From a virus: a DNA stretch of 21,225 nucleotides. A program made the position numbers and the translations under genes. The stretch lies in the IMG/VR virus record IMGVR_UViG_3300042894_003212, positions 1 to 21,225 of that record, one strand, 5' to 3'. Each line of letters begins with the position of its first letter. Positions within the stretch are counted from its first letter, which is position 1. Of this stretch, positions 511 to 18,961 are shown in pieces. The notes under the pieces are model-generated. The model ran no database searches. It saw only the letters and a program-made list of their open reading frames with translations, and was not told the origin of the DNA.

Positions 511-2310
511 ATGGCAAATGGATTCTTAACAACTTCTGAGCTAGATCTACAGAACTACAAATCTAGCTTAAAAACATTTCTATCCCAGCAAGAGCAATTC
601 AAAGATTATGATTTTGAAGGCTCAAACTTATCTGTATTACTGGATCTTCTTGCCTATAATACCTTCATGAATGGTGTGTATCTAAACCTGGTTGGTAGTG
701 AGATGTTCTTAGATACATCTCAACTTAGAGAATCCATTGTTTCGCATGCTAAGGAACTGAACTATACGCCACGTTCTAGAACAGCTGCTGTTGCCTATGT
801 TAATATTACTATTACACCTGATGATACGCCAGATTCTATTACAATTCCAAAATATTATGAGATCAGTGGTAGAACAGATGATAATACTACCTACTTCTTT
901 ACGACTGATGAAACACTTACAATCAGGGCAAACAATGGCTTCTATACAGCTGCTAATGTAGCAGTGTATGAGGGTAACATTGTTAAAGAAGTGTTTATAG
1001 CTAATGGGTCGGCACGCTATCTATTACAATCTGCTAATGTTGATATTGAATCAATTAATATTACTGTTAAAGAATCAAACACAGCAACGACGGAAGTAAA
1101 GTACAATAAAGAAACTTTCCTATTTGATCTTGATAATACAGATAATATCTATTTTATACAAGGCGCGGAAGACCATTTATATGAAGTTGTTTTTGGTAAT
1201 GGGGATATTGGTAGGGAACTTACCGATGGTAACTTAGTTACTATAAACTATAGAGAAACAAATGGGCTCGATGCCAATGGTGTTGAAGTGTTTACTGCTC
1301 CAAATGCTGTTGAGGGGTACACTACTATAGCAATAGCGACAGTTAGTGCTGCCGCATCCGGTGCAGAACATGAAACTGATGAAGAAATTAAGTTCAATGC
1401 TCCTAGATACTTCCCTACACAAAATAGAGCTGTGACAGTAGAAGATTATATTGCTCTAACAAAACAAGCATTCCCATCCCTGGAAATTGTTACAGCATTT
1501 GGTGGTGAGGAAACAGAACCTAAACAATTTGGTAAGGTAATTGTTGCAGCTAAACCAATTGGTGGTACTAAGTTGCCTACACCACTAAAGACGCAAATTT
1601 TTAACTTCCTAAAGGAAAGATCTGCTATCTCTATTGATCCAGTAGTTATAGATCCGGAATATTTCTTTGCGGAAGTTGTGACAGAAGTGCTCTACAATAT
1701 TAATGAAACAACAAGATCTGAAAGAGATATTGAAGCTCTTGTTGAGTCAACTATTTTATTATTTGCTAGTGACAATCTTGCTAAATTTGGTTCTGATCTT
1801 AGATACTCCAAACTTGTTAAAGCCATTGATGATTCTGAATCTGCCATTATTAGTAACAATACAGAATTAAGAATTATTAAGAATGTTGAAGTTGACACAG
1901 GTGTTCCATTTAGAATTGCATTCTCCTTTGAAAATGAATTAAGAAGAGAAGTGTCAACAACAAGAAAAATTTATGAAGACACAACATCCACAATTGAGTC
2001 TTCATTGTTTACATTCAATTTAAATAATATAGATTACCTTGCCAAAATTAAAGACGACACCCAAGGCAATCTAATGATTATATCTGTTGTCAATGGAGTT
2101 GTACAATTATTAAAAGATAAGATTGGTACAGTTGATTATACCAATGGTACAATATCTATTGGTGCTATTGTATACGATGATGTTGGTTTAGATAATGAAT
2201 TAGAAATTTATGGTAGAACAAAGAAGTTAGATATAGAAACAAATGCTAACAAGGTCCTTCAGATTGTATCTGGAAACCTTGTTGTTTCAGCCCGCGGCAT
2301 TAGAGCATAA
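511..2310 (+). CDS. 6: Baseplate wedge subunit, T4 gp6 / baseplate J-like homologue
   Basis: The protein has 599 residues, against 660 in T4 gp6. Gp6 dimers link neighbouring wedges and form the continuous inner ring of the baseplate. The N-terminal segment (about residues 9-100), with LLDLLAYNTFMNGVYLNL and LRESIVSHAKELNYTPRS, is typical of gp6 in marine T4-like phages. Further on are FGNGDIGREL (about 228-237) and PRYFPTQNRAVTVEDYIALT (about 298-317), the baseplate-J-type signature in which an R-AVT-DY segment precedes a beta domain. The C-terminal 150 residues look like an added beta-rich region. The start at 511 has AGAGAGG about 10 bases upstream. The stop overlaps the next start by one base (TAATG), which suggests coupled translation. 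Confidence 0.92.
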   Translation: MANGFLTTSELDLQNYKSSLKTFLSQQEQFKDYDFEGSNLSVLLDLLAYNTFMNGVYLNLVGSEMFLDTSQLRESIVSHAKELNYTPRSRTAAVAYVNITITPDDTPDSITIPKYYEISGRTDDNTTYFFTTDETLTIRANNGFYTAANVAVYEGNIVKEVFIANGSARYLLQSANVDIESINITVKESNTATTEVKYNKETFLFDLDNTDNIYFIQGAEDHLYEVVFGNGDIGRELTDGNLVTINYRETNGLDANGVEVFTAPNAVEGYTTIAIATVSAAASGAEHETDEEIKFNAPRYFPTQNRAVTVEDYIALTKQAFPSLEIVTAFGGEETEPKQFGKVIVAAKPIGGTKLPTPLKTQIFNFLKERSAISIDPVVIDPEYFFAEVVTEVLYNINETTRSERDIEALVESTILLFASDNLAKFGSDLRYSKLVKAIDDSESAIISNNTELRIIKNVEVDTGVPFRIAFSFENELRREVSTTRKIYEDTTSTIESSLFTFNLNNIDYLAKIKDDTQGNLMIISVVNGVVQLLKDKIGTVDYTNGTISIGAIVYDDVGLDNELEIYGRTKKLDIETNANKVLQIVSGNLVVSARGIRA

Positions 2311-4295
2311 TGAAAGAACTAGAAAAGTTTATATCTCCATTTATTGCCAGTCAATTTCCCTCTATCTATAAAGAAGAGGGTCCTCTATTCATTGCATTTG
2401 TAAAAGCATATTTTGAGTGGCTTGAATCAGAAAACCAGGTCATTTACGATTCTAGAAGGTTGCTAGAATATAGAGATATTGATAAAACAGTAGATGTCTT
2501 TATTAATAATTTTAAAAAGAAATATATGTTCCCTATCCCAGAAGATATTGCTGGCGATAAGGTTTTGCTGCAAAAGCACATTAAAGAAGTATATGGATCT
2601 AAGGGTACAGAGCGAGGCCTAAAACTTCTATTCCAACTTTTGTTTGCTGATAACATTAGTGTATACAAACCTGGGGATGATGTTTTTAGGTTGTCAGATG
2701 GTGATTGGAATAGAGACATTTATCTTGAGGTATCCTTTAAACCTTTCAATAGTTTATTTGTTGGTGAGTTTATTAGAGGCCGTATATCTGGCGCAAGGGC
2801 CTATGTTGAAAGTTTCCAGACAAAATTTGTTAATAATAAAAACATAAACATTTTTTATCTAACGGATGTAGTTGGTAACTTTAGACATGATGAAGTTGTT
2901 CTAATTGATGAATCCAAATTGCCAGAAGGTGAGGTTCCATCTGTAACAGCAATTAACTCACCAAAGATTATTGGTTCAATGACAGAAGTTGATGTTTCAA
3001 ATAGAAGCTCGCCATTTGGTTATACTGTTGGCGACATACTGGAAGTACAAGGTAGAGGTTCTCGCGGTAAGGTAGTTGTAACAAAATTAAAAGAACTTGA
3101 TGGTACAATTTCATTTAATCTAGAAGATGGTGGCTCAGGTTATACTGTTAATAATACTGTTTTCTTGATTAAAGGTCCTGTCACAGGGCTTGTTATAGAG
3201 GCCGGTGGCACAGGTTATAGCAATACAGATGTCATAACATGTTCAAACGGAACAGCAAATGCAACAATAACCTTAGCTGGAGCTTTGGGTGTTGGCGGTG
3301 TAATTCTTGCTAATAACATTAATGTAGTTAATGGCGGTAATGGATTTTTAACAACAAATGCATTTACTGTTACAGTTGCAATAGCAAACTCAACTGGCGG
3401 AGCCTCAGCAGGCCTTGGCGCAAATCTAGTGCCAGTAATTGCAGGTGGCGGCGACCAGGCAGGTTTAAGAATTGGCGCTTTAACCAATGTTAAATCTCTT
3501 TTTTCATCTGCTGTAAAAATTAATACAATTGGCCAAACACTAAATTATATTGTCACTGCCAATAATGTTGATAATACACTTATTGGTCAATTATCATATC
3601 CAACTGGAAATGGTTATGGTCTTGCTTCAAATGTGGCAGCAGGCTTTGATACAATCCTCAAAGATGCGTTAAGCTTTCAGAATTATGAAGTTGGTACAAT
3701 ATCTAAAATCTTTACAACCAATCCTGGCCAAGATTATACAACGAATGTACAAATTACAGTGACAGATACTGTCATAGGACTAATGGAGCTACCCGACAAA
3801 GAACATCCTGCTGGCCGCGGCGAGCAAGGTAATGGGCAACTTGGCAACAATGCCGTTGTAACTGGCGTTGCTGGGTTTGGCTCTGATGCTCTGGGAGAAG
3901 TCAAAGTTATTGACTCAGGTCTAGGTTATGAACAAAGAGAAGAAGCCCTTCTTGTTTCATTGTCTAACACAAACCTAATAACATCTGGCACTGTATTACT
4001 AACAAGACAGGGTCAGGGTGAAGGTAATTTCAAATCAACTCGTGGATTTTTAAATTCTGACAAGTTCATTCATGACAGTTTTTATTATCAAGACTATTCT
4101 TATGAAGTAAGATCATCAGTTGTATTCAATAAGTATAGTGACCTTCTAAGAAAGCTTTGGCATCCAGCTGGTGTCGAAAAGTTTGGTAGAGTTCTTGTAA
4201 GCAATGAAGTCACCTCTGCAACACCAGACGTTATACAGCAAGCATATATAGGGGATGGGTCAACGACGACGTTTGCTATCCCAGGTGGAGCATGA
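2310..4295 (+). CDS. Conserved virion structural protein at the gene 7 position (probable baseplate wedge component)
   Basis: The protein has 661 residues. The N-terminal 145 residues, mostly helical, include FPSIYKEEGPLFIAFVKAYF, EYRDIDKTVDVFINNFKKKY, GSKGTERGLKLLFQLLF and YKPGDDVFRLSDGDW. This combination is typical of a structural protein family widespread in marine T4-like phages. It sits between genes 6 and 8, where T4 has gene 7 (1032 residues), so a gp7-like wedge role is inferred from position; I see no direct sequence match to T4 gp7. From about residue 270 on the protein is built from several small beta modules with a G-x-G-Y core (GGSGYTVNN, GGTGYSNTD, GGNGF, DSGLGYEQ). It ends in AYIGDGSTTTFAIPGGA, which looks like the first half of a module that continues in the next gene. 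Its TGA lies inside the ATGA overlap with that gene. Confidence 0.75.
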   Translation: MKELEKFISPFIASQFPSIYKEEGPLFIAFVKAYFEWLESENQVIYDSRRLLEYRDIDKTVDVFINNFKKKYMFPIPEDIAGDKVLLQKHIKEVYGSKGTERGLKLLFQLLFADNISVYKPGDDVFRLSDGDWNRDIYLEVSFKPFNSLFVGEFIRGRISGARAYVESFQTKFVNNKNINIFYLTDVVGNFRHDEVVLIDESKLPEGEVPSVTAINSPKIIGSMTEVDVSNRSSPFGYTVGDILEVQGRGSRGKVVVTKLKELDGTISFNLEDGGSGYTVNNTVFLIKGPVTGLVIEAGGTGYSNTDVITCSNGTANATITLAGALGVGGVILANNINVVNGGNGFLTTNAFTVTVAIANSTGGASAGLGANLVPVIAGGGDQAGLRIGALTNVKSLFSSAVKINTIGQTLNYIVTANNVDNTLIGQLSYPTGNGYGLASNVAAGFDTILKDALSFQNYEVGTISKIFTTNPGQDYTTNVQITVTDTVIGLMELPDKEHPAGRGEQGNGQLGNNAVVTGVAGFGSDALGEVKVIDSGLGYEQREEALLVSLSNTNLITSGTVLLTRQGQGEGNFKSTRGFLNSDKFIHDSFYYQDYSYEVRSSVVFNKYSDLLRKLWHPAGVEKFGRVLVSNEVTSATPDVIQQAYIGDGSTTTFAIPGGA

Positions 4296-7200
4296 GTACA
4301 CTAACAGTCAAAGTAAATGGAGTATTGCAGGTACTAGGTACCGATTATACCATTTCTGGTGGTAGTGTTGTATTTACCAAAGCACCTAGTGCCGAGGCCT
4401 CTGTTGAGATTAGAAAAGAAATACCACGGAGTATTCTTGAGACTAGCTTCCAGATTGAGCAAATCAGACTAACAGAGCTAACCACTGCCTATAGCACCCA
4501 GACCATTGTATCTTCCACATTCAATACAAATATTGGAACAGGTACCACAACAACGTTTGTTACTGCATACTCTACTTCTAAATCTACCGATACTACTGTA
4601 GCAACATCCAAGAGTACAACGACAGCGTACATTTCAGAATTTGACACTGTCATTGGTACATCTAAGAACACCACATCTCAGTATGTTACAGCTTATCAAA
4701 CAGTATTTAATACAGTATCTGTGTTTGATACAGTTATTGTTACATCCTATGCCACAACAAAAACAACATCAACAGTATTTGAAACAACAATTGGTACAAA
4801 TAGAGTAACATCTACAAGTAGAGCCACAACAATAACAACAATCTTTGATAGTAGTAGAACAACTACAACAGTTTATAGTACTGCTTATACAACAATTTAC
4901 GCTACCCAGACAGCTTACAATACAAATAGAAATACTGTATATAATACCTCAATTGCTACTCTAACAAGCAAGAGTACCAATACATCTCAAACAACTTCAA
5001 CTGTCTATAATACATTCTATGCATCACAGTATGGAACAACCACTGTATTTAACACATCTAAAGACACAAACTTTGTCACTTCAAAGTCCACAGATACAAC
5101 TATTAACACATCGAAGGCAACAAACACAACAACTACCTATGCTACAATTTTTGATACTGCTGGTTCAACAACAAGAAGTACAACATCTCTTTATGTAACT
5201 GTATTTAATACATCTAAATCAACAGCTACTGTCTTTAGCACAACATTTGATACCATCTTCAATACCAACAAATTAACATCAACTAGTAAATCAACAACTT
5301 CTGTATTCAATACAATAACTACATTTGTTACAACATTTGATACTGGTTACAATACTAGTAAGTCAACAACATCGTTGTTTAATACGACAACAACATTTAA
5401 TACATCATATGCAACTAACTTTGCAACGACAACAGCATTTGAAACAAATGTAGCAACTCAAACTACCGTATCACAAAATACTGCCAGAAATACAACTACA
5501 GTATTTGGTACAGCTACAAGTGTTATAACAACAACTGCGTTTAATACCACAACCACGTTTAACACAACGTATGCAACTAACTTTGCCACTAATACAACAT
5601 TTGAAACAAATGTAGCAACCCAAACCACTGTATCACAAAATACTGCCAGAGATACAACTACAATATTTAGTACAGCTACAAGTGTTATAACAACGACTGC
5701 GTTTAACACTACAACCACGTTTAACACAACGTATGTAACTAACTTTGCAACGACCACAGCATTTGATACAAATGTTCTAACAGAAACAAACCGTGGAACA
5801 AGCAAAGCGACTGAAAAAACAATTGGTACAAGTAGAGCCACAGCAACTTCTAGGGCCACGACAACGCTGTTTGATACAACAACATCGTTCGATACAACAA
5901 CCACATTTGGCACCACAACAACCTTTGATACGACATATAGTACGACTTATCAAACAACTTCTACAACTGAACAAACAGATACCTACAATTCTGGTTCTGG
6001 AACTGCTACTGCCCCATCAGGTGCAATATCAGTGGTTATTAAAGTTTGGGGTGGCGGTGGTGCAGGTGGTACTGGTCGCCAACAAGAGTTTACAGGCGGC
6101 GGAGGTGGAGGCGGTGGCTATGGAGAACATAACGGTACTGGTTTAACTGTTACAGGTGGTGTGACGTTTGGATATGCTGTTGGTGCAGGGGGTGACGCTT
6201 CAACCCAAAACGCACCTACAGATGGTGGAACATCACAAGTTACTGGCGATGGTAATAATCCTTCTTTTGCTCTATCAGGATATGGTGGTTCTAAAGGCTC
6301 CAACGCAACAATTAATGATGATGGTGATGGCGGTGATGGTGGAACTGCAGCAGGAGGCACAACTAATACAACTGGAACTGCAGGCGAGTTTGGCGGACCT
6401 GGTGGGGCTAGTGCAAATGGTGGCGCCGGCGGCAATATGGGAATTGGAGGCGTTGGTGGTGATGGCACTGCTCCTGGTGGTGGCGGTGGTGGTGGCGGGT
6501 ATACCTCTGGTGTTACAGGGTATCGTGGTGGTTATGGTGGTGCTGGTCGCGTTCAATTTATTTGGACAATTCAAAGTAACATTAACACATCCCGCGTAAC
6601 AAGTGCAGCAACATCTAGAACCACAGACACGTCTAGGGCAACGGCTACATCTAGAGCTACTGCTACATCTAGATCTACAACAACTACATTTAGCACAACA
6701 ACATCATTTAATACAACATACCAAACTACAACAACATTTGTTACTGGATTCCAGACAACTACTATATTTGGTACCTCTAGAGGCACAACAACAGTCTTCG
6801 ACACTGCAAAAAGTACTGCAGCTCTCACTGGCACAAGTAAAAGCACCACCTCTATATTTGATACAGCAACGTCAGCTGTAACATCTACTACTTTTGTTAC
6901 TACCTATCTGGCGGCTACAACAACTGCACTTGTAAGATCTCGAAGTACGACAACTATATTTGATACTGCAAGGAGCACAGCAGCTGCCACTGCTACAAGT
7001 AAAAGCACCACATCTGTATTTGATACAGCAACGTCAGCTGTAACATCTACTACTTTTGTTACTACCTATCTGGCGGCTACAACAACTGTATTTGTAACAT
7101 CACGAGGTACAACAACTGTATTTAATACAGCAAAGAGTACTGCTGCAGTTACAGGAACAAGTGTTGCTACAACCACTGCATATAATACATTAGTTGCTAC

Positions 7201-10200
7201 AGCTCTATCAACAAGTAGGGCAACCGTGACTAGTAAAGCCACAACAACTGTATTTGATACAACTACTAACTTTGATACAAATTTTGCTACAGCTAGAAAT
7301 ACATCAAAGGCTACAGATACTACGTTTGAAACTAACTTTGGTACATCCAAGGCAACAGACACAACCTTTAGCACTCTATTTAATACAGCTGCTGCAACAT
7401 CAAAAAGTACTGCAACAACAACCGTGTTTGGCACTGCATATGCAACAACTACTTCATATGATACTGTTTATGGTACAGTATTTGCAACAAACAAAACAAC
7501 GGACACTTCTACTGCAACAGTAAAGTCAACATCTAAGTCAACAACCTCTGCGTTCCAGACAACGACAGTCTATAATACAGATACTACGTTTGAAACAAAT
7601 AGAAACACAATATTTAATACTGTCATAGCAACAGACACTTCCCGCGATACTGTAATCCTAACTTCAAAGAGTACCTCAACATTATTTGAAACTGCTATTG
7701 ATACTGTATACGAAACAAATATTGCAACAACCTCTGTATTCAATACAGTATTCAATACAGCAAAAAATACTACGAGTGTATTTAATACAGCAATTGACAC
7801 AGCCTATGCAACCAACATTGCAACAGCTACATCTAGATTTACCACAAAGGGTACAGAGACTGTAACATCTACAGCTTATGAAACTGGTTATGCAACCCAG
7901 ATCTTAACATCCAAGAGTACCTCAACTGTATTCAACACTGTATTTGCAACAACAACTGTATTTGATACAGGACCAAATACAACAAGAAATACATTGACAC
8001 AATCCGTTTATGCTACAACATCAAGTACACTGAAGGGCACAGACACATCTATCCTAACAGAGTATAGAATTGTTGTTACACAAACATTGTTTAGCACTAA
8101 TATTGAAACAACATACGAAACAATTGCTGGTGTTTTAACAACTATTGCGACAGACGTGTTAACTGGTAAAACTACTGATACCTCATTTGCTCTTGAAACA
8201 AGAAATACTTTAAGAGATACAGCATTCCAAACAACAAACCCAACGTTGATTGCAACTACAACATTATTCCAAACATCATATAATACAAACCAGGTTACAC
8301 GTTATGTAACATTCAATACAGCGTTTGAAACAAGTAAAAATACATCTACTGTATTTGATACAGCAACGACAACTGCATATAACACAACAAGCACATTCAA
8401 CACATCAACTGTTATATCATCCTCAACTTCTCGCAATACTGTGGTAACTTCTTCAACAGTATTTGATACAAGTAGGTCTACAATATTTGCTACTGGCACA
8501 TCTAGAACTACAACATCCTCATATCAGACAAATACAACAACAATATTTGCTACTGGATATGATACAAACGTTGCAACAACATCAGTATTTGTAACAGCAT
8601 TTTTAACTGTGTCAACATTTGACACAAGCCAGACTACATCTAGAAACACAACTCTGTCAAAGGGTACAGAGATCATTACATTCTTTGCTACATCACAATT
8701 AACATTTAAACCAACAAGTACCTCACGCAGCACGGTTTATGTTAGTGACTTCACTACTGTATCTCGCACAACAGAATTTAATACTTTAACAGGTATAACA
8801 ACAGCGTTTGATACAAAAAGAGGTACAAACCAGACAACTGTGTTTGATAGCTCAACTTCATTCCTAACTAGCTTTGCCACAACGCTAAACAAAACAACTA
8901 CGACAATTACTAATAAGAGCACTCTAAGTGCCTATAACACATTAGTTAACACATCAAAAGTTACTGACATAGGAACATCTACAGATACTACAACTGCATT
9001 TGACATTTTGACATCACGTAATACAGCATATAATACTACTAAGACAACACAAAGTACTCTAGTAACAACATTTGATACAGTGTTTAATTCTACCTTTGCC
9101 ACATCAAAGGCAACGTCAACAAGTAGGAGTACACTAACATCCACATCATCTGTTATTACAACAACATATGACACATCAAAGAGTACTGTTAATAACACTA
9201 GCACAACATATCAAACAACATTTCAAACTGATTCTGGAGCAGGTACATTAGTCAGTACATCTGCTCTAACAACAAAATCGACAGGAACATTAACATCAAC
9301 CGTTACTGCCAAGTTGACAACAGTTGATACAACTCAAAGCACCGAAACACAATACTTAATGTCAAGCAGTTTTGGTACAGAGACTGTGTTTGAAACTGTT
9401 GTGGGTACAGCATATGACACAACTACTACATTCAACACGCAAACAATATTCCAGACATCTTCCGTATTTGACACAACAACATCATTCCAGACCGACTCGG
9501 GTGCTGGTACATTGAAGGCAACATCTAAGACTACATCTACTGCTATCTTAACAAATACAAATAAGACAACTGCAACATCAAGAGTTACAGTAACAGCAAG
9601 TGGAACATACTACGTAACATCTAAGACTACAGCTTCCATGTATGATACTACGAAGAATACAGTGGCTGGTCAAACTATTGCTCTAACAAGTACTTCTAAG
9701 AATACAACAACAGTATATTTGTCTGAATATCAATCAACAATCAATACTACAACATCATACTTGTCTTCTTACTCAACTGTTATTGCTACGAGCAGACAGA
9801 CCCAGGCTTTGACAACATTTGGTACATCTAAGACAACAGAAACAATATTCCAAACTGCTGCTGGTGGTGGTACATTATTTAACACAACAAACAATACTAC
9901 AACAGCATTTGACACTGTCTACCTAATCACCCAGTCTGTTGCCTCAACAGCTACCACATTCCAGACTGATTCAGGGGCTGGTACATTAAAGGGTACTTCT
10001 CGAAATACAATTACAACTTACACAAGATACTTGAGTGGTAAGCAAACATCTACTGTGTTTACGACAGCATTTGCTACAGATCCATTTGTAACAACGACTT
10101 TTGGTACATCTAGGAGCACACTGACAGTTTACCCAACTGTATTTACTGAATTTGGTACTTCTAAAGACACCACAACAACATACCAGACAGATTCAGGTGC

Positions 10201-11047
10201 TGGTACAATGGTGAGTACCTCACAAAGTACAACTACTGCATTTAATACAGTATATGCAACTGGTGCATTGACCCAGAAGTCAACTACTACAGCATTTGAT
10301 ACAGTCTATAGCACCGGTCTTGCAACGACAAGAGATACTGCTACATTCTTAACCACATCAACTGCATATGTTACAGAGACAGCAAGAATTACTGGCTCAG
10401 GTAAAATCACACAGTTTGCAACCACAACAACCATCAACACTGATACAGCAAGAGGTACCTCAACCACATTCCAGACAGATTCTGGCGCAGGTACATTAGT
10501 TAACACATCAAGAAATACATTTACTGGTACTATTACATCATTTAACACTACCACTGTAACTATTAGTGATATGTTGACAAGCAAGTCAACAGCTACACAA
10601 ACTGATCAAGGGACGTTGGTAACAACATCAACAGCTACATCATATAGTACAGAAACAGAGTATACCACATCAAGTGGTATAACAGTATTTTTAACATCTG
10701 TTAACACAACAACAGTGATTGACTTTAGTATTAGAAACACTGAATATCAGACTCTCACATCCGTAGAAACTGGAACAGTGTTTGAAACAGGTGACAGACA
10801 AACAACACGACTAACACAATTATTAACAAATACTGAAACCTCTCAATTGGTAATTGATACAACTAGAACAACGTCTGTTGCTACAACATTTGATACATCT
10901 ACAGCTTACTTGACAGATTCTGGGGCTGGTACAATGGTTGCTACATCTAAGTCAACCTCTACATCTAGAATAACAGATAAGGCAACAGACACAAATTATG
11001 ACACAGCCATTCAAACAACATATGAAACTGTTTATATAAATAACTAG
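4292..11047 (+). CDS. Giant Thr-rich repeat protein, probable long fibre or adhesin
   Basis: The protein has 2251 residues. Residues 1-46 are a small beta module (KVNGVLQVLGTDYTISGG...), the kind usually preceded by GDGSTTTF. Residues from about 47 to 564 and from 761 to the end are low-complexity repeats built from units such as TSKSTT, TVFNT, TTFDT and TSRAT. Thr is about 39% in the segment counted (25 of 64). Thr, aromatics and Lys or Arg fall on every second residue, as expected for long beta strands with two different faces. Residues 565-760 are a Gly-rich module holding the only Trp residues (KVWGGGG, FIWTIQ). I found no Cys. The repeat runs to the last codons, with no tip, chaperone or enzymatic domain. 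ATG 4292 overlaps the previous stop (ATGA), with AGGTGGAG just upstream. A fibre role is inferred from size, repeats and context. Confidence 0.7.
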   Translation: MSTLTVKVNGVLQVLGTDYTISGGSVVFTKAPSAEASVEIRKEIPRSILETSFQIEQIRLTELTTAYSTQTIVSSTFNTNIGTGTTTTFVTAYSTSKSTDTTVATSKSTTTAYISEFDTVIGTSKNTTSQYVTAYQTVFNTVSVFDTVIVTSYATTKTTSTVFETTIGTNRVTSTSRATTITTIFDSSRTTTTVYSTAYTTIYATQTAYNTNRNTVYNTSIATLTSKSTNTSQTTSTVYNTFYASQYGTTTVFNTSKDTNFVTSKSTDTTINTSKATNTTTTYATIFDTAGSTTRSTTSLYVTVFNTSKSTATVFSTTFDTIFNTNKLTSTSKSTTSVFNTITTFVTTFDTGYNTSKSTTSLFNTTTTFNTSYATNFATTTAFETNVATQTTVSQNTARNTTTVFGTATSVITTTAFNTTTTFNTTYATNFATNTTFETNVATQTTVSQNTARDTTTIFSTATSVITTTAFNTTTTFNTTYVTNFATTTAFDTNVLTETNRGTSKATEKTIGTSRATATSRATTTLFDTTTSFDTTTTFGTTTTFDTTYSTTYQTTSTTEQTDTYNSGSGTATAPSGAISVVIKVWGGGGAGGTGRQQEFTGGGGGGGGYGEHNGTGLTVTGGVTFGYAVGAGGDASTQNAPTDGGTSQVTGDGNNPSFALSGYGGSKGSNATINDDGDGGDGGTAAGGTTNTTGTAGEFGGPGGASANGGAGGNMGIGGVGGDGTAPGGGGGGGGYTSGVTGYRGGYGGAGRVQFIWTIQSNINTSRVTSAATSRTTDTSRATATSRATATSRSTTTTFSTTTSFNTTYQTTTTFVTGFQTTTIFGTSRGTTTVFDTAKSTAALTGTSKSTTSIFDTATSAVTSTTFVTTYLAATTTALVRSRSTTTIFDTARSTAAATATSKSTTSVFDTATSAVTSTTFVTTYLAATTTVFVTSRGTTTVFNTAKSTAAVTGTSVATTTAYNTLVATALSTSRATVTSKATTTVFDTTTNFDTNFATARNTSKATDTTFETNFGTSKATDTTFSTLFNTAAATSKSTATTTVFGTAYATTTSYDTVYGTVFATNKTTDTSTATVKSTSKSTTSAFQTTTVYNTDTTFETNRNTIFNTVIATDTSRDTVILTSKSTSTLFETAIDTVYETNIATTSVFNTVFNTAKNTTSVFNTAIDTAYATNIATATSRFTTKGTETVTSTAYETGYATQILTSKSTSTVFNTVFATTTVFDTGPNTTRNTLTQSVYATTSSTLKGTDTSILTEYRIVVTQTLFSTNIETTYETIAGVLTTIATDVLTGKTTDTSFALETRNTLRDTAFQTTNPTLIATTTLFQTSYNTNQVTRYVTFNTAFETSKNTSTVFDTATTTAYNTTSTFNTSTVISSSTSRNTVVTSSTVFDTSRSTIFATGTSRTTTSSYQTNTTTIFATGYDTNVATTSVFVTAFLTVSTFDTSQTTSRNTTLSKGTEIITFFATSQLTFKPTSTSRSTVYVSDFTTVSRTTEFNTLTGITTAFDTKRGTNQTTVFDSSTSFLTSFATTLNKTTTTITNKSTLSAYNTLVNTSKVTDIGTSTDTTTAFDILTSRNTAYNTTKTTQSTLVTTFDTVFNSTFATSKATSTSRSTLTSTSSVITTTYDTSKSTVNNTSTTYQTTFQTDSGAGTLVSTSALTTKSTGTLTSTVTAKLTTVDTTQSTETQYLMSSSFGTETVFETVVGTAYDTTTTFNTQTIFQTSSVFDTTTSFQTDSGAGTLKATSKTTSTAILTNTNKTTATSRVTVTASGTYYVTSKTTASMYDTTKNTVAGQTIALTSTSKNTTTVYLSEYQSTINTTTSYLSSYSTVIATSRQTQALTTFGTSKTTETIFQTAAGGGTLFNTTNNTTTAFDTVYLITQSVASTATTFQTDSGAGTLKGTSRNTITTYTRYLSGKQTSTVFTTAFATDPFVTTTFGTSRSTLTVYPTVFTEFGTSKDTTTTYQTDSGAGTMVSTSQSTTTAFNTVYATGALTQKSTTTAFDTVYSTGLATTRDTATFLTTSTAYVTETARITGSGKITQFATTTTINTDTARGTSTTFQTDSGAGTLVNTSRNTFTGTITSFNTTTVTISDMLTSKSTATQTDQGTLVTTSTATSYSTETEYTTSSGITVFLTSVNTTTVIDFSIRNTEYQTLTSVETGTVFETGDRQTTRLTQLLTNTETSQLVIDTTRTTSVATTFDTSTAYLTDSGAGTMVATSKSTSTSRITDKATDTNYDTAIQTTYETVYINN
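5376..5790 (+). repeat. Tandem 162-bp (54-residue) repeats, set 1, about 2.5 copies
   Basis: Equivalent points recur exactly 162 bases apart: the TATGCAACTAACTTTGC-like segment begins at 5408, 5570 and 5732 (TATGTAACT in the third). Units encode a series such as TTFNTTYATNFAT, ETNVATQTTVSQNTARNTTT and ATSVITTTAFN. Copies differ mainly at third codon positions and a few residues. The repeat lies just before the Gly-rich module of the giant protein. Confidence 0.9.
5984..6571 (+). other. Gly-rich adhesin-like module inside the giant repeat protein (residues 565-760)
   Basis: This segment breaks the Thr-rich pattern. It begins with a beta segment, SGAISVVIKVWGGGGAGG, and passes through many oligo-Gly runs, including two of eight Gly separated by beta strands (LTVTGGVTFGYAVGAGG). 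It closes with GGYGGAGRVQFIWT. The arrangement, an opening hydrophobic strand with VWGGGGAGG, a middle TFGYAVGAGG strand and a closing GRVQF strand, is that of the glycine-rich domain common in phage tail fibres. Oligo-Gly loops also form the receptor-binding part of gp38-type adhesins. The local base composition is more GC-rich than the flanking repeats. It is the only likely globular part of the protein, so it is the best candidate for surface binding. Confidence 0.75.
6760..7150 (+). repeat. Tandem 162-bp (54-residue) repeats, set 2, about 2.4 copies
   Basis: The period is again exactly 162 bases: TTC or TTT codons of the FDTA/FNTA segment lie at 6797, 6959 and 7121. Units encode FDTARSTAAATATSKSTT followed by VFDTATSAVTSTTFVTTYLA. 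Bases 6855-6926 and 7017-7088 (72 bases) are identical. The unit sequence is unrelated to set 1 apart from the general Thr pattern. This set lies just after the Gly-rich module. Confidence 0.9.
9224..10936 (+). repeat. Dispersed QTDSGAGT(L/M) motif, six clear copies and one degenerate
   Basis: The motif is encoded at 9224-9250, 9488-9514, 9962-9988, 10184-10210, 10472-10498 and 10910-10936 (LTDSGAGTM in the last). A degenerate QTAAGGGTL is at 9851-9877. Spacing is irregular, about 110-440 bases. Most copies follow an aromatic residue and precede (V/K)xTS. The motif occurs only in the C-terminal part of the giant protein (about residues 1645-2215). DSGAG would make a turn or bulge in an otherwise uniform Thr-rich strand pattern. 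Confidence 0.85.
10229..10336 (+). repeat. Two tandem 54-bp (18-residue) units
   Basis: Two adjacent 18-residue units, TTTAFNTVYATGALTQKS and TTTAFDTVYSTGLATTRD, are encoded at 10229-10282 and 10283-10336. Eighteen is one third of the 54-residue period seen elsewhere in the same protein, so 18 residues may be a basic structural unit. Confidence 0.75.
11035..11042 (+). promoter_or_regulatory. T4-type late promoter (TATAAATA) overlapping the end of the giant gene
   Basis: A second perfect TATAAATA late box lies over the final Tyr-Ile-Asn codons of the giant repeat gene, 28 bases before the gene 8 start at 11070. A ribosome binding site (AGGG, about 6 bases before the ATG) follows. It would let gene 8 and the downstream structural genes be transcribed independently of the 6.7-kb gene in front. 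The match is seen directly; activity is inferred. Confidence 0.75.
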
Positions 11048-11069: not shown

Positions 11070-13121
11070 ATGTTAACCAAATTTAAGCGAAACGTAGTTG
11101 ACCTTTTTATAGATTCTGTTGCTAATACACTGAGCACAGATCTTTCTGGTACAGTAACAGTCAACACTTCATCCGCAAATGTCACAGGTTCGGGAACAAA
11201 CTTTACTGTTGATTTTACAGTAGACGACCGCTTGTTTATTGGTTCTGAATCAAGACAAATTATCTCTATTGTTAATAATACATTAGTTGTTGTTGGTTCT
11301 GCATATTCAGCAAACGCGTCCGCCAACACATATAAGAAGGGTAGACTAAAAAACGATAGTTATTACGTCTTTGCTGCAAGACAGTCCCCATATGATAATG
11401 AAAGCATAACAGCAAACACAATTGACGATGATTACGAATCTCAAGTATTTGTTCAAGATGAATTAATGTTTGGTATGAAGATTACAGACGATGATGTTTT
11501 GCCAATGGCAGCAAAAAGAGAGTGGCAATCAAACACAGCATATGCAATATATGATGATAAAGATAATGAACTATTAGCAAAAGCTTTCTATGTTATAACG
11601 TCTGAAAATAAAGTATACAAATGTATTAACAATGGTCTTGGAGATATCTCAACTGTTGAACCATCCCACACAGAGGTTGGTTATCCACCTGAAGAATCCG
11701 ATGGCTATAGATGGTTATATCTGTACACGATTAATAATATTGATTATCTGACATATGCTACAGAAAATTACATTCCTGTAATTGAAAATGCCAACGTAAA
11801 GAGCTCAGCCATCGATGGTTCTATTTTTAATATTGTTGTAGAAGCCAATGGATCTTCATATCCCGCTGATAGTGGTACAATCAGAACTGATCCAAATGGT
11901 AATAATTATATTATCCAAATCAGAACTGGGACATCTACTTCAAATGATTTCTTTGCTAATTGTGCTATCACAATTACTAATGATTCAACAAACTTAACCT
12001 ATGTTAAAGAAATCAGAGATTATGTTTCAAATGGGGCTGGCAACTTTGTTATTCTAAAAGTTCCATTCTCTACAAGCCAAGTATCAAACAACAATCCATA
12101 TTCAATTGGCCCATTTATTAAAATTGATTCTAAAACAGGCTCACATTGTATAGCATCAGCAGTAATGCAGAACATCTCAAATACTAACTTCACTGGTAGT
12201 GTTGAGATGATTGATATCATTAATCCTGGCAGAAACTATAAGCAAGCAAATGTTTCTGTTCAAACATCGGTAGGTTTTGGTAGTGGTGCCCAAGTTAGAG
12301 CCATTATGTCACCACCTGGTGGCCATGGATCAAATGCCAAGGATGAATTATATTGCCAATCAGTTGGTATTGGTGTTGTATTCTCAAATACAGCAACATT
12401 CTCGTTCTCTTCAGATGTAGAATTTAGATCTGTAGGTATATTAAAGAATCCTCTATCTTCCACAACATCTGATGGTACAGGAACTATAGATCTTGTTGCT
12501 AATAGCTTAAGCGTGATAGGTGTTGGTACAAAGTTTACAACAGAATTAAATATTGGCGATAATATCATTTATTTGGATGAGGAAAAAGAAGTATCATCCA
12601 TTGCCAATAATACAAGCCTAATACTAAAAAATCCATTTTCATATACTGTTGTTGCAGAAACATTTGATATTAGAAAAAGATTCTTCAACGCCTTTTTCAA
12701 TCAAACAGTAGCTATCACTGCTTCTAATACTACCCCTGCTTTACTACAACCAGGTGAATTCATTCTTGGTTCTGATGGTGCAGGTGGTGGATCACAAGTA
12801 CAGGCTAAGGTTGCATTTGCCAATACATCTAAGGTCGTATTAACTGGACTTGATAGATCACAGGCGCGCGGCAATAATAGCGTAATCACATTCGTAAATG
12901 ATATCGTGATGGATGGTGTTGGCTATATTGTAAATGGCGCCGATAGCCCAGAAATAGTTGCATCGGGAGCTAAATACTCTAAGGCAGCTGGTAATACAGC
13001 TATTACAACAGTTCCTGATTTGAAATTGTATTCAGGCGAGGTTTTGTACTTACAGAACCTATTGCCAATACAAAGATCAAACACAACAAACGAACAAATT
13101 AGACTAGTAGTTAAGTTCTAG
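11070..13121 (+). CDS. 8: Baseplate wedge subunit, T4 gp8 homologue (enlarged)
   Basis: The protein has 683 residues, about twice T4 gp8 (334). Gp8 sits as a dimer on the gp6-gp7 wedge. The family core is seen in REWQSNTAYAIYDDKDNELL (about 151-170), YVITSENKVYKCINNGLGD, SDGYRWLYLYTINNIDYLT and the C-terminus YSGEVLYLQNLLPIQRSN...IRLVVKF. The C-terminus aligns with the T4 gp8 end (SGEMIYMENRPPI...INILFTF). A segment with PPGGHGSNAKDELY is typical of marine gp8. The extra length comes partly from two copies of one small beta module, at residues 27-91 and 469-536 (G-T-x-F-T ... I-x-N-N-T-x-L), inserted into the core. The ATG at 11070 has AGGG 6 bases upstream and a late promoter at 11035. The stop is 11 bases before the next start. 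Confidence 0.88.
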   Translation: MLTKFKRNVVDLFIDSVANTLSTDLSGTVTVNTSSANVTGSGTNFTVDFTVDDRLFIGSESRQIISIVNNTLVVVGSAYSANASANTYKKGRLKNDSYYVFAARQSPYDNESITANTIDDDYESQVFVQDELMFGMKITDDDVLPMAAKREWQSNTAYAIYDDKDNELLAKAFYVITSENKVYKCINNGLGDISTVEPSHTEVGYPPEESDGYRWLYLYTINNIDYLTYATENYIPVIENANVKSSAIDGSIFNIVVEANGSSYPADSGTIRTDPNGNNYIIQIRTGTSTSNDFFANCAITITNDSTNLTYVKEIRDYVSNGAGNFVILKVPFSTSQVSNNNPYSIGPFIKIDSKTGSHCIASAVMQNISNTNFTGSVEMIDIINPGRNYKQANVSVQTSVGFGSGAQVRAIMSPPGGHGSNAKDELYCQSVGIGVVFSNTATFSFSSDVEFRSVGILKNPLSSTTSDGTGTIDLVANSLSVIGVGTKFTTELNIGDNIIYLDEEKEVSSIANNTSLILKNPFSYTVVAETFDIRKRFFNAFFNQTVAITASNTTPALLQPGEFILGSDGAGGGSQVQAKVAFANTSKVVLTGLDRSQARGNNSVITFVNDIVMDGVGYIVNGADSPEIVASGAKYSKAAGNTAITTVPDLKLYSGEVLYLQNLLPIQRSNTTNEQIRLVVKF

Positions 13122-13132
13122 AGGTTCTAAGA

Positions 13133-16100
13133 ATGGCTCTTGATATCGCAAACACAGTATTGAATGCATCACCATATTTTGATGACTATAATGAGGATAA
13201 GAACTTCCATAGAGTTCTCTTCAGACCATCCGTTGCCGTCCAGGCTCGCGAACTAAACCAAGTTCAGTCCATTCTTCAGAACCAAATTGAGAGATTTGGC
13301 CAGCATATTTTCAAAGATGGTACAATTATCAAGGGTTGCGGTCTTTCATATCTTAATAGAATTGATTATGTTTCTATTAATGATCAGTTTGATACAAACA
13401 CCTCTCTGTCATCAACTAATACACAGTTTGTTAATGCCATTGCTGTAGGTTCAAATTCAGGCGTTGTGGCCCAGATTATTTCTGCAAGAGAGGGTTTCAA
13501 GGCATCCTCAAATCCAGCTAGATTCTTTATTCAATACACCCAGCCTGGTTTCAATAACCAAAGAACATTTGACCAAAATGAAACAATCAGCATTTATCAG
13601 CCTGGTAAATCCTACATTGATAAAGTTATTCTTCAAGTTAATACTGTAATTACTGTCAACACAACAAACTTCCCTGTTGGCTCAAAGTTAATTAATAACG
13701 TAAACCAGGCCCGTGGCTTTGTTGTTAATGCCTATGCTAACACATTTGGTAACTACGTTGAATTAAGAAACGTAAGAAAGACATTTGCAACTGGTGATGC
13801 CTTGGTCCTTTCAACAGATGCAGCAGTAACTGCAAATGTCGTTAGTGTAGATTACGAGAGCTATGCAAACTCTCTGATTGACACAGTACTAACTCTTACA
13901 AACAATACAGAGCTTGGTTACACATCGCTTGGCTTTGCCCATGGCGTTGTTGTATCACCTGGTATTATTTTCCACAAAGGTCACTTTGTTAAGGTTGATG
14001 CTCATACAACAATTACCAATGAGGATACACCAGACCCAAGTGGTAAGATTCTATATTTCAAGACAGAAGAAGAAGTTATTAAGGAGACAGATGATTCATC
14101 TCTATATGACAATGCTTCTGGTACAACAAACATTAATGCACCTGGTGCCCACAGATTAAAGCTTACATCAACATTGATTGCAAGAAATAAGAATGGTGCC
14201 AATACCATTTCTAATACAGATATTGCATTCCCTATTGTTGAGTTTGGTAACAATGGTCCTATCTTCCAAAAGACAAACACAGAATATAATATTATTGGTG
14301 ATGAGCTAGCAAAGAGAACATTTGAAGAGTCAGGGCATTATGTTGTTAAGCCATTTACAATCTTAACAAAGCCACATGGTAGTGATTCAGACAAATTTGT
14401 TTATGAAGTTGGCCAGGGCTTATCATACGTTAAGGGTAAGAGAATTGAATTCCTAAACAATCAAAATGTTGAGGGAAGAAAGGGCGTTGATACTATATCA
14501 GAATCAGAACAGCCAATCACAATGGCGTATGGTAATTACGTTATTGTTGATGATTTAAGAGGTTATTTCCCAGTCAACCAGTCTGTAGAAGTAAGATTCT
14601 ACAATGCAGCCCAGGATGCTGTATCTGGTGAAAGATTGCCTGTTGCTAATACAGCAACTGGTACAATCGTTGGATACGCTAACATTCGAGCAGTTACCTA
14701 TATCGATTCAAGCACTGCCTTGAAGGGTTCACACCTAGCACAATATAGACTATACATCTTCAACTATAGACCAGTTGGTACGTTTACATTCCAAGATGCG
14801 AGATCAGTTGTTTACGATGATGGGTCAAACGCTCAAGCATTCGCTGATCTAGTATTAACTGGGGGTGTTCCTGTACTACAGGAGAGTACACAAACTCCTC
14901 TGTTCTTTAGTCTGAATGCAAAGGCTGTAAAGAATTTAAGAAACAGCAATAATGTTTCTGATACAGACTATTTCTACACAGCTGCTAATACAGCTGGCGC
15001 TCAGCTTCAATCAACTGGTCTATTAACATTTGGTATTGGATCTCTCCAGGGTATCCTTGGATTTACTGGTAGTTCTAATGCTGATGAACTAAAGGTTGAT
15101 GTTATAGTAGCAGACGCCAATGCTCAATGCGCAAGCGCCCTAGTTGGTACAGTTGCGGCATCGGCCACAAATATCATTACTGGCACAAGTACACTATTTA
15201 CTGAGGACTTTGTTCCTGGTGAGTGTATCAGATTCACAGGTCTGCCTTCAGCAAACACACATAGAATCGTATCAATTACCAACTCCACGTCAATGACTAT
15301 TAACACAGCAGTAAGTGTTGTTGCTAATACCTATACGAGAGTGCACTTGAGAGGTTCAACAATTGCGTTGAACCCAGCTGCTGGCAACAAGAGAACAATG
15401 GTTGTCAATCCAGGCACCGAGACTGCAACAATTAATCTTGGTAATACCTATGTTGGCACAACAAACGTTGTTGTTAGATTCCAGGCTCTCAACAATGAAG
15501 CTAACCCAATATCCAAGAGAATTAATAGAAATTCAGTAGTCATTATTAATACTGCCAATAATGTTGGCGGAAATACAGGCCCATGGTCACTTGGTGTACC
15601 TGATGCATTAAGACTGACGGGTGTTTATATTGGTTCAAATTCATCAAACTTTGTTACCCAGACAAACAGGGTTAACGACTTTATTCTTGACAATGGTCAG
15701 AGAGACACCCACTACGACCACGCTAGGATTTCTCTATCACCAGCATCACCTCTTACAACATTAGCTAACACATTTTTGTTGGTTCAATTTGATTGCTTTA
15801 CTGCAAATGTTACAGCTGGTGAAGGATTCTTCTCGGTAGAATCATATCAGGCAAATGATGCAGCTACTGCAAATACAGAGTTAACACTAAGAACATACGA
15901 AATTCCATCGTACACCACAACTTTTGCCAACACAGTAGTTACATACGATCTCAGAGATGTAATTGATTTTAGACCATATAAAGCTAACACAGCCAACATC
16001 ACATCATCATTTACATCAGCTACAATCAATCCGCCTGCAACAAATACATTCAATTCAAATACAACCACATATACTCCATATCCTGGTTCAACGCTAACAA

Positions 16101-18961
16101 CAAATTTCACATACTATCTTGGTAGAAAGGATAGATTAGTGCTTACACCAGAGGGTGTGTTTAAGGTTGAGGAAGGCTTACCTGGTATCAATCCAAGATT
16201 GTCACCAATGTTACCAGATGTACTAAACGTGGCTGAGGTATCAGTTCCTGCCTATCCATCTCTTTCTGATACAGAGAAGTTAGTAGTCAGACCAGAAAGT
16301 AACATTCTAATTGATATTCTAACAAACAAGCGCTTCACAATGAGAGATATTTCAGTTCTTGAAAAGAGAATTGAAAGACTAGAATACTACACCACTCTCA
16401 ATATGCTAGAAAGCATTGCTCTATCAACAATGATTGCTGACCAGAATGGTGATCAAAGATTCCAAAATGGATTCTTTGTTGATCCATTCAACAGCCATGC
16501 ATTTGGTAGAACAGAAGACCCAGATTACAAGGTTGCTATTGACGAACAAAATGGCTTACTACGACCATTGTTTGAGCCACAAGTTATTGAAATGGAATTT
16601 GATACAAACCAGGACTCATATGGTGATGTTCAGATAACAGGCAACATGATTACGTTGCCATATGTGCATGAGGTGTACATTGATCAACCACATGCCTCTG
16701 ACCCTGTTAACGTATCAGGTACCCCAATTGCCTTTAGAGGCACAATTGATGTAAGACCAACAGTAAGAAACGATGTCGAGTTCTTAGCAAGACCAGCTTC
16801 AGTTGGTAGTACATCTAAGATTGCCCAAGCCTATAGTTCAATGGCTTCTGTCACTCCTGGCACAACACAGTACGGTTGGTGGAGAGAGGGTATTCAGAAT
16901 AATGACGATTACAACATTAAGTCTGGACCAAATGATGCAAGAAATGCTACCTCAATACCAATTGAAACAAATAAATCTGTAACGACCCAGAGTGGCGAGA
17001 AAGTACAGACTGGTATTGTGTATCTTTCAAAGGAAAGAGTGTATGCCTTTAAGGCTGTTGGTCTGAAGCCAAATACAATACACTACCTGTTTATCAACGA
17101 TAACAACAATTCAGAGTATGCAGCTCTTGGTGAGCTAAGTGGAACACCAAATGCAGGCGATGAAACATTTGTTACAAGATCAACACCATGGGGTACTATT
17201 TTAGAAACCGACTCACGTGGTGAAATGATTGGTAAGTTTATTGTACCAGCTCTCGCATTAAGATCAGGTACCCATAAGCTAACAATTAGAAACAGAAACA
17301 CATTGAATCGTGGTATTGATGAATCTTATGCTGATGCATACTTTACAGTAGACATCGCACTACAGCAGCCACCTATTATTGTTGATCCTCCTGTACCTCC
17401 ACCACCAGATGCAAACACACCTGCTAATACAGGTCTGCCACCACCAAGTAATAACTCAACAAACACAGTTATTACACTACCTGAAGCATTTGCAAGATTT
17501 ACATATACAGGTAACACAACCGTTGTGGCTACTCGTGATGCAAATGGCTATATCAGCAATGGTGTGTTCACGCTAACATTTACAGATGACAGCTTCGTTA
17601 AGAACGGAAGCATTACTGCATATGAGTGGAACTTCAATACTGGTGATTTCCCAGAAATTGGAATCCTAAATGTTAATACAACTCTAACAGGGGTTGGTCC
17701 TCATACAATTCCATTTACTACTGATAGATCAGTATTAGATGTTCTTGTAACATTAACGATTACAGACTCCGCTAATGAGAAGAAGAGCAATAGTCAGCAG
17801 ATTAGATTGACTAAGTTAATTCCACCACCAATAATTGTTGCTCCACCAGCAACACCACCTGCTGTACCAAATGTGGCACTAACATTTGTTGCTTCTGAAA
17901 TCAATCAAATATCTGATCCATTTATCTATGCAAACTGGAGCACAGATGCATATCTACCAAGCTTCACAGGGTTAAATTTACCTTACTTGAGCTTGACATA
18001 TGATGCAGGTGTGTCCCTAGGTACAAATACTGTTGTTAGAGTTATTGCTAAGCCATCAGTAGATTATCAAGGCTATATTGGTTGGACCGTAACACCAGTA
18101 TCAGCCACATCATTGAGAACATTTACTCAAGCCAACCTAACTCAAGTTTATGTTGAGACGGGTGGTAGTGGATACTCAAACAACGACACAATTAGATTCT
18201 CTAATGGTCAGGTTGATGCCTTTGCCACAATCTTCACAGATGATGCTGGTAGCATTAGCTATGTTGAGTTGGCATCGCGCGGTAACTTCTCAGATGGTAC
18301 ACCTGTAACACAGCAGACATTTACTGCTAATAGTACTATCTTCAATAACTTTACATTATCCACCTCAAGTACAAACACAAGCATCCAAGTTACAGTTAAT
18401 GGCCTTGTACAATCCCCAGGTGTTGATTACCAAGTAACAGGTGGTGGTACAACTCTAAACTTTACAACAAATCTTGACTTTTCTGTAAGTCCTGATGTGG
18501 CTGTCGTTTCATATAATGTAACAGGCGTTACCCCTGGTACAGGATTCAAGCCAGCGGAACAAATTAGAGTACAGATTGCAAACACAACCAACCCAGCTAA
18601 TAGCACCAATGGCAATACCTCTGGTGGTACTGGAGCAGTGTTGACGCTAGTACCAGGTGTTGTATTTAATTCAACGCCAACAAATTCACCAAGATGCGCA
18701 AATGACTCTATTACACTATACTCAAATACAGGCCCTGATTCAGAGACAGTTGTACTTGTCAAGGCTGATTTCTATCTATCAAATGGCTATGCAAACTCAA
18801 TTGGTAACACATCCCAGCACTTTACATTAAAGACAACATCTGCTGTTCCAGTACGAGAACCACAACCTACAGGTCCCGGCGGCGGCGGTGGAAATGCAGG
18901 ATCTGGTGGTGGCGGAGTCTTGAAAAATGAGTATGTCAGAAATAGATATATGAAAGTATAA
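13133..18961 (+). CDS. Large DUF4815-like virion structural protein with C-terminal beta domains
   Basis: The protein has 1942 residues. The N-terminus, YFDDYNEDKNFHRVLFRPSV then QARELNQVQSILQNQIERFG, is the hallmark of the DUF4815 family of large tail or baseplate-associated proteins in marine myoviruses. Residues 672-741 repeat the GT..F small module seen in the gp8 homologue. Residues about 1311-1407 (LKPNTIHYLFINDN ... GEMIGKFIVPALALRSGTHK) resemble a conserved C-terminal structural domain of marine phage proteins. Beyond it lie a Pro-rich linker (PPIIVDPPVPPPP), an Ig/PKD-like domain (about 1450-1560), a second similar linker (PPPIIVAPPATPP), G-x-G-Y and VNGLVQSPGVDY modules, and a Gly-rich end (GPGGGGGNAGSGGGG). 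The ATG has AGAGG about 8 bases upstream. The exact place in the virion is not known; peripheral baseplate or fibre attachment is inferred. Confidence 0.8.
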   Translation: MALDIANTVLNASPYFDDYNEDKNFHRVLFRPSVAVQARELNQVQSILQNQIERFGQHIFKDGTIIKGCGLSYLNRIDYVSINDQFDTNTSLSSTNTQFVNAIAVGSNSGVVAQIISAREGFKASSNPARFFIQYTQPGFNNQRTFDQNETISIYQPGKSYIDKVILQVNTVITVNTTNFPVGSKLINNVNQARGFVVNAYANTFGNYVELRNVRKTFATGDALVLSTDAAVTANVVSVDYESYANSLIDTVLTLTNNTELGYTSLGFAHGVVVSPGIIFHKGHFVKVDAHTTITNEDTPDPSGKILYFKTEEEVIKETDDSSLYDNASGTTNINAPGAHRLKLTSTLIARNKNGANTISNTDIAFPIVEFGNNGPIFQKTNTEYNIIGDELAKRTFEESGHYVVKPFTILTKPHGSDSDKFVYEVGQGLSYVKGKRIEFLNNQNVEGRKGVDTISESEQPITMAYGNYVIVDDLRGYFPVNQSVEVRFYNAAQDAVSGERLPVANTATGTIVGYANIRAVTYIDSSTALKGSHLAQYRLYIFNYRPVGTFTFQDARSVVYDDGSNAQAFADLVLTGGVPVLQESTQTPLFFSLNAKAVKNLRNSNNVSDTDYFYTAANTAGAQLQSTGLLTFGIGSLQGILGFTGSSNADELKVDVIVADANAQCASALVGTVAASATNIITGTSTLFTEDFVPGECIRFTGLPSANTHRIVSITNSTSMTINTAVSVVANTYTRVHLRGSTIALNPAAGNKRTMVVNPGTETATINLGNTYVGTTNVVVRFQALNNEANPISKRINRNSVVIINTANNVGGNTGPWSLGVPDALRLTGVYIGSNSSNFVTQTNRVNDFILDNGQRDTHYDHARISLSPASPLTTLANTFLLVQFDCFTANVTAGEGFFSVESYQANDAATANTELTLRTYEIPSYTTTFANTVVTYDLRDVIDFRPYKANTANITSSFTSATINPPATNTFNSNTTTYTPYPGSTLTTNFTYYLGRKDRLVLTPEGVFKVEEGLPGINPRLSPMLPDVLNVAEVSVPAYPSLSDTEKLVVRPESNILIDILTNKRFTMRDISVLEKRIERLEYYTTLNMLESIALSTMIADQNGDQRFQNGFFVDPFNSHAFGRTEDPDYKVAIDEQNGLLRPLFEPQVIEMEFDTNQDSYGDVQITGNMITLPYVHEVYIDQPHASDPVNVSGTPIAFRGTIDVRPTVRNDVEFLARPASVGSTSKIAQAYSSMASVTPGTTQYGWWREGIQNNDDYNIKSGPNDARNATSIPIETNKSVTTQSGEKVQTGIVYLSKERVYAFKAVGLKPNTIHYLFINDNNNSEYAALGELSGTPNAGDETFVTRSTPWGTILETDSRGEMIGKFIVPALALRSGTHKLTIRNRNTLNRGIDESYADAYFTVDIALQQPPIIVDPPVPPPPDANTPANTGLPPPSNNSTNTVITLPEAFARFTYTGNTTVVATRDANGYISNGVFTLTFTDDSFVKNGSITAYEWNFNTGDFPEIGILNVNTTLTGVGPHTIPFTTDRSVLDVLVTLTITDSANEKKSNSQQIRLTKLIPPPIIVAPPATPPAVPNVALTFVASEINQISDPFIYANWSTDAYLPSFTGLNLPYLSLTYDAGVSLGTNTVVRVIAKPSVDYQGYIGWTVTPVSATSLRTFTQANLTQVYVETGGSGYSNNDTIRFSNGQVDAFATIFTDDAGSISYVELASRGNFSDGTPVTQQTFTANSTIFNNFTLSTSSTNTSIQVTVNGLVQSPGVDYQVTGGGTTLNFTTNLDFSVSPDVAVVSYNVTGVTPGTGFKPAEQIRVQIANTTNPANSTNGNTSGGTGAVLTLVPGVVFNSTPTNSPRCANDSITLYSNTGPDSETVVLVKADFYLSNGYANSIGNTSQHFTLKTTSAVPVREPQPTGPGGGGGNAGSGGGGVLKNEYVRNRYMKV

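Follow-up and report, generated by a model that had tools for sequence, protein, structure and literature searches.

The stretch of DNA analyzed here (the window) is the whole of IMG/VR virus record IMGVR_UViG_3300042894_003212, 21,225 bases in length, and the subject is the junction between two of its genes, one encoding a baseplate wedge protein of 661 residues and the other a giant protein of 2251 residues rich in threonine and serine, hereafter the arm. The wedge open reading frame (ORF; 2310–4295) ends in ...YIGDGSTTTFAIPGGA at a TGA stop codon, and the arm ORF (4292–11047) begins with MSTLTVKVNGVLQVLGTDYTISGG. As a first-pass annotation of this DNA had described, the arm ORF lies in the -1 frame relative to the wedge ORF, and the bases common to the two are exactly ATGA; the frame of the giant protein contains no start codon before ATG4292. 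A single β-module is divided between the two proteins at this overlap. The features of the junction are listed below (HMM, hidden Markov model).

2310–4295, plus strand: baseplate wedge protein, 661 residues, treated as gp7-like by the gene order 25-6-7-8 (PHROG 17744, PF23786, and gene order); its C-terminal tail corresponds to strands 1 and 2 of the split module
4215–4247, plus strand: hypervariable linker, residues 636–646, before the conserved C-terminal peptide (per-column identity 0.14–0.6 at several positions)
4233–4292, plus strand: first part of the module, with strand 1 (residues 642–647) and strand 2 (654–656), ending in PGGA (HMM match; strands mapped from the model of an intact relative via the GDG motif)
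4284–4289, plus strand: GGTGG(A/G/T), Shine-Dalgarno-like, just upstream of the start codon (duplex with the 16S tail, -6.3 to -8.6 kcal/mol)
4292–4295, plus strand: ATGA stop-start overlap (GTGA in L008 and L021), kept in all 18 split relatives
4292–11047, plus strand: giant Thr/Ser-rich arm protein, 2251 residues
4292–4420, plus strand: second part of the module, strands 3–6, residues 1–43 of the arm protein (HMM positions 33–72; strands from the intact-relative model)
4421–4480, plus strand: conserved connector RKEIPRSILETSFQIEQIRLTEL, its start within the PF03906 match (invariant ETSF...Q in 14 relatives)
4484–11044, plus strand: Thr/Ser repeat arm, of the kind that also forms the C-terminal part of fused wedge proteins (BLASTP)
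5975–6574, plus strand: glycine-rich island inside the arm (Pfam PF21722 Gly_rich_2, 29.8 bits, cut-off 24.3)
18308–18469, plus strand: unsplit copy of a related module in a DUF4815 protein of 1942 residues (residues 1726–1779, near the C-terminus)

The junction is a conserved feature of a group of uncultured T4-like phages. A search with the wedge protein returned 18 IMG/VR contigs that span it, with wedge identities of 67–100%, and in all 18 the wedge protein stops at the same residue (PGGA or PGGS) and the next frame opens with the second half of the module. The stop-start overlap of -4 nt, either ATGA or GTGA, is likewise present in every split relative, and the third base of the last wedge codon is always A or G, as the start codon requires.

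Whether the two termini are parts of one module was examined with an HMM trained on intact modules from other phages, which came from loci that had been found using the second half only. The joined window sequence scores 70.6 bits against this HMM, and the arm head alone scores 55.0. When the head was preceded instead by control sequences (1000 shuffled tails and 1000 other 24-residue segments of the wedge protein), none of the 2000 reached 70.6 bits, the maximum being 63.4. Searched against the whole proteins, the HMM aligns its positions 11–25 with wedge residues 643–657 and its positions 33–72 with arm residues 3–42 (46.5 bits for the latter), and the two halves are therefore complementary. 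Together with the conservation in 18 contigs, these scores and ranges bear out the proposal of the first-pass annotation that a β-module is divided between two genes at ATGA. The extent given there needs correction, in that the module is real and its start had been placed too late; approximately six residues upstream of GDG, which form strand 1, belong to it. The unbroken relative that had been pointed out in the 1942-residue protein is also present, its residues 1726–1779 scoring 24.2 bits against the intact-module HMM.

At the other loci found, the second half has sequence before it. The first-half motif lies upstream in the same ORF at 32 of the 43 distinct loci that a search with the second half alone had returned, whereas only 13% of stretches in other parts of these proteins contain it; outside the split clade, each such locus has 30 or more residues of its ORF ahead of the second half. 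Homologues in which each half forms an independent, complete domain, which the first-pass annotation had named as evidence against a split module, were thus not encountered; the other second-half loci are unsplit or have those preceding residues.

The module is jelly-roll-like and belongs with the N-terminal domain of T7 gp17, an anchor of the kind that usually attaches a fibre to a phage tail. A joined query of 92 residues matches PF03906, the T7 tail-fibre N-terminal domain, with 27.9 bits (cut-off 25.2) over residues 14–76, across the junction, whereas the second half alone reaches 18.2 bits, under the cut-off. This domain is not whole in one chain and is divided at 4292–4295 in all 18 relatives. 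The only solved structure related to the module by sequence is the Klebsiella K1 depolymerase 9k4a. As a stand-in for the split pair, we modeled the module of an intact relative, L057 (23-row alignment A3). The 67-residue model has a predicted local distance difference test score (pLDDT) of 97.3 and contains six strands, at residues 3–8, 15–17, 27–31, 42–45, 48–51, and 60–65. Aligned via the GDG and VNG motifs, the gene boundary maps to the loop at model residues 18–26, between strands 2 and 3, so that the wedge protein supplies two strands and the giant protein four.

Comparison of the L057 model with known structures by Foldseek and VIA-align places phage tail-fibre and tailspike domains on top: T7 gp17 (7ey9_a; Z 9.4, root-mean-square deviation 2.3, 67 residues aligned, for the intact relative and not the split pair), CBA120 TSP4 (7rfv; Z 9.3), and LME-1 (9efk; Z 9.1), with a T4 baseplate chain lower in the list (5iv5_AC; Z 6.9). 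The Foldseek E-values for a model of this size exceed 0.001 and Z-scores of 7 to 8 can be background; the identity of the domain is therefore based on Pfam, the HMM, and the uniform kind of the top matches taken together. The homologous domain of TSP4 has its first and last strands side by side in antiparallel orientation (PMC8825819); on that homology, the last strand of the arm head would be the partner of wedge strand 1.

Both sides of the cut appear constrained. Following the hypervariable linker, per-column identity recovers to 0.6–1.0 over GDGSTTTFAIPGGA, and residues G648, D649, P658, G659, and G660 of the wedge terminal peptide are invariant. In the arm head, 19 of 63 positions are invariant, among them the ETSF of the connector. 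A short conserved peptide behind a variable tether has the look of a binding peptide, from which we infer that the wedge tail would have a partner.

The nucleotide sequence of the junction fits coupled translation. The third base of the Gly659 codon is T in 14 of 14 sequences, one of only two invariant third bases among 119 comparable codons, which is consistent with a Shine-Dalgarno-like role for GGTGG(A/G/T), though its spacing to the start codon is short. Gene pairs with termination-reinitiation most commonly overlap by -4 nt, and short overlaps of this type are enriched among genes for subunits of heteromeric complexes (PMC10666635). The wedge and arm genes match this pattern, and the arm is probably translated by reinitiation. 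The gp6-like gene likewise shares one base with the wedge gene (TAATG, 2307–2313), so translation of gp6, wedge, and arm may be coupled across all three genes.

The best explanation of the locus, and in our judgment a probable one, is that an anchor domain was divided by gene fission and that its halves reassemble noncovalently to hold the arm on the baseplate. Among the three possibilities raised in the first-pass annotation this one fits best, the fission being supported by the comparisons above and the reassembly suggested by them. In the proposed mechanism, the ribosome would end the wedge protein and restart at once on the arm gene via ATGA, and this stop-start coupling would yield wedge and arm adjacent to one another and in near 1:1 amounts. 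The wedge protein would then present strands 1 and 2 behind its variable linker, and the arm protein strands 3–6 followed by the connector. The new wedge tail would insert its two strands into the incomplete sheet of the arm head to give one jelly-roll, and this strand complementation would be the noncovalent joint that fixes the arm to the baseplate; in sister phages the arm is joined covalently to the wedge as its C-terminal extension. We lean, with somewhat less assurance, towards the specific view that the fibre-anchor jelly-roll is completed only with the two strands donated by the wedge, making it a natural split domain that serves as a virion fastener and leaving an ancestrally covalent arm as a separate, self-attaching part.

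The history of the locus can be read from relatives of the wedge C-terminus, the best 80 of 510 of which were examined. In the nearest outgroups (DLP_6, L128, L155–L162, L164, and L166–L168), the wedge and the Thr/Ser arm are one ORF without the module; the fused protein is AAY80_265 of 1288 residues in the isolate phage DLP_6, which infects Stenotrophomonas, and in L128 it has 2180 residues and is open. These proteins have the same wedge domain, an arm of the same kind, and the same place in the gene order as the split pair, and differ in being a single uninterrupted chain. The fused homologue that the first-pass annotation had proposed to look for thus exists as a wedge-arm protein, though not as one that contains the module. 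In L129, the fused ORF is interrupted after 743 codons (4190–6421) and the near-identical L128 and L137 read through; the interruption may reflect a difference in assembly or be a genuine break. In more remote wedge proteins, the chain stops shortly after the same wedge C-terminal motif, and there is no arm. The giant wedge proteins of cyanophage type (L026–L030, PHROG 4406) combine the wedge C-terminal motif and, after it, a related module in a single chain, and therefore an unsplit form of a neighboring arrangement exists; they differ in being unsplit chains of 2900–3100 residues, in the distance from motif to module (~134 residues, as compared with ~55 here), and in that no Thr/Ser arm was seen.

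In a tree of the wedge domain, the wedge-arm group has support of 100/99 and the split clade is monophyletic (100/100); the fused sequences fall on either side of the split clade, and are thus paraphyletic, in 98% of bootstrap trees. The split clade is therefore probably nested among fused wedge-arm proteins, and one gene fission coupled to gain of the module would be the simplest history. Several observations count against this account and the joint proposed above. The approximately unbiased test does not reject a tree that unites the fused proteins in one clade (p = 0.08), and a split ancestor of equal age is therefore possible. No module is present in the nearest fused relatives, and a wedge region and a module occur in one chain only in the distant cyanophage-type proteins. 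Among the 80 relatives, no unsplit wedge-module-arm intermediate was found within the wedge-arm clade, although one could be missed. Finally, an AlphaFold model of the whole wedge protein (16 sequences) has a mean pLDDT of 47.9 and is uninformative in the tail region.

The strongest alternative, which we regard as unlikely, is that the halves are functionally separate, the head folding alone or as a strand-swapping homo-oligomer and the wedge tail being a leftover or binding another partner. The head does have four of the six strands and reaches its 55.0 bits unaided, and the homologous domains of other phages form trimers (PMC8825819). Yet the wedge tail is clearly constrained beyond its hypervariable linker, and the strand-1/2 pattern is kept in all relatives, whereas a leftover would decay over such divergence; furthermore, at every other second-half locus found, the ORF contains residues before that half, and in most cases the first-half motif is among them.

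Less probable still is programmed -1 frameshifting, which would yield a wedge-arm fusion of ~2900 residues, either as the sole product or in addition to the separate proteins. The first-pass annotation, which had entertained frameshifting at a low level, saw no classical slippery heptamer, and indeed the window contains no in-frame X XXY YYZ. In 7 of 14 sequences (L002, L004–L007, L010, and L015), CCCGGGT stands in slippery register 13 nt before the wedge stop codon; it is absent in the window and in six relatives and is probably a by-product of Pro-Gly codons. This heptamer, a -1 frame that in every relative is open for 5–28 codons before the start, and the fused counterparts in sister phages would all suit frameshifting. 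Against it, the heptamer is missing from half of the sequences, the third base of the Pro658 codon varies freely, and the start codon is kept in all, including where ATG has changed to GTG. Downstream of the junction, no notable conserved RNA fold was detected (z-scores of +0.6 to -1.7). Frameshifting is accordingly disfavored.

A variant in which the tail of one wedge completes the arm head held by a neighboring wedge, so that the joint links wedges around the baseplate ring, is very improbable; the variable linker before strand 1 would give the necessary reach, but pairing in cis is simpler and matches the fused relatives. The remaining possibility, a single gene broken by a one-base assembly or sequencing error, has nothing in its favor and is excluded, as 18 contigs from many metagenomes carry the identical ATGA/GTGA junction at the same residue, at wedge identities down to 67%.

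Reassembly of a divided anchor domain, the reading we prefer, has partial parallels in known systems. The T7 gp17 N-terminal domain is alike in sequence family and, for the intact-module model, in structure; it differs in being whole and N-terminal in one fibre chain, whereas here the domain is shared by a myovirus wedge and a giant arm. The XD2/XD3 domains of CBA120 TSP4 and T4 gp10 have the same fold and serve to join tail parts (PMC8825819). They are whole domains that bind other trimers by their surfaces, and the joint proposed here would lie inside the domain. 

In chaperone-usher pili, a strand from a neighboring protein completes an incomplete β-domain by donor-strand complementation. 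Those proteins are unrelated to the present ones, and here the proposed donation would involve two strands from a C-terminal tail.

The arm itself is repetitive. Residues 65–2251 are 33% Thr and 11% Ser, with a weak periodicity at 4, 14, and 18 residues over more than 2000 residues, and no Pfam or PHROG family covers the arm. Its BLASTP scores against the fused arms beat those of block-shuffled controls in every case, a homology that rests on repetitive sequence with no long unique peptide in common. A tblastn search with the giant protein found no relatives, probably because of its repetitiveness. Within the glycine-rich island, the local G+C content rises to about 0.48; glycine-rich domains of that kind are found in phage adhesins. 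The arm may be a fibre-like appendage.

The remaining genes of the window are as follows.

87–509: gp25-like gene, first in the gene order of the window
511–2310: gp6-like gene, upstream neighbor of the wedge gene
11070–13121: gp8-like gene, after the giant arm gene
13133–18961: DUF4815 protein, 1942 residues
18978–20687: further structural protein, the last gene listed

The wedge protein matches the baseplate wedge subunit family PHROG 17744 with E = 2.9e-139 and PF23786 with 28.8 bits (cut-off 27). The order gp25, gp6, wedge, arm, gp8-like corresponds to the T4-like order 25-6-7-8, with the wedge gene at the place of gp7, and the paper on DLP_6 names the equivalent wedge gene gp7 (PMC5349666). 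On the basis of this order and naming, the protein is treated as gp7-like, by position and wedge family and without a demonstrated match to T4 gp7. We found no relatives at the DNA level among annotated phages and no solved structure related to the wedge protein by sequence. A search of 84,980 bacterial and archaeal genomes returned no wedge relatives and therefore gives no clue to the host.

The domain, the wedge, and the arm are all of known kinds; in the literature searched, which was limited in extent, we found no account of an anchor domain whose division over two genes is conserved. Related phages carry the same wedge and arm in either fused or split form and offer a testable case of a covalent part of the virion becoming a separate subunit. 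If the halves bind tightly, they would constitute a natural two-piece tag pair that comes together at one defined baseplate site in the course of assembly.

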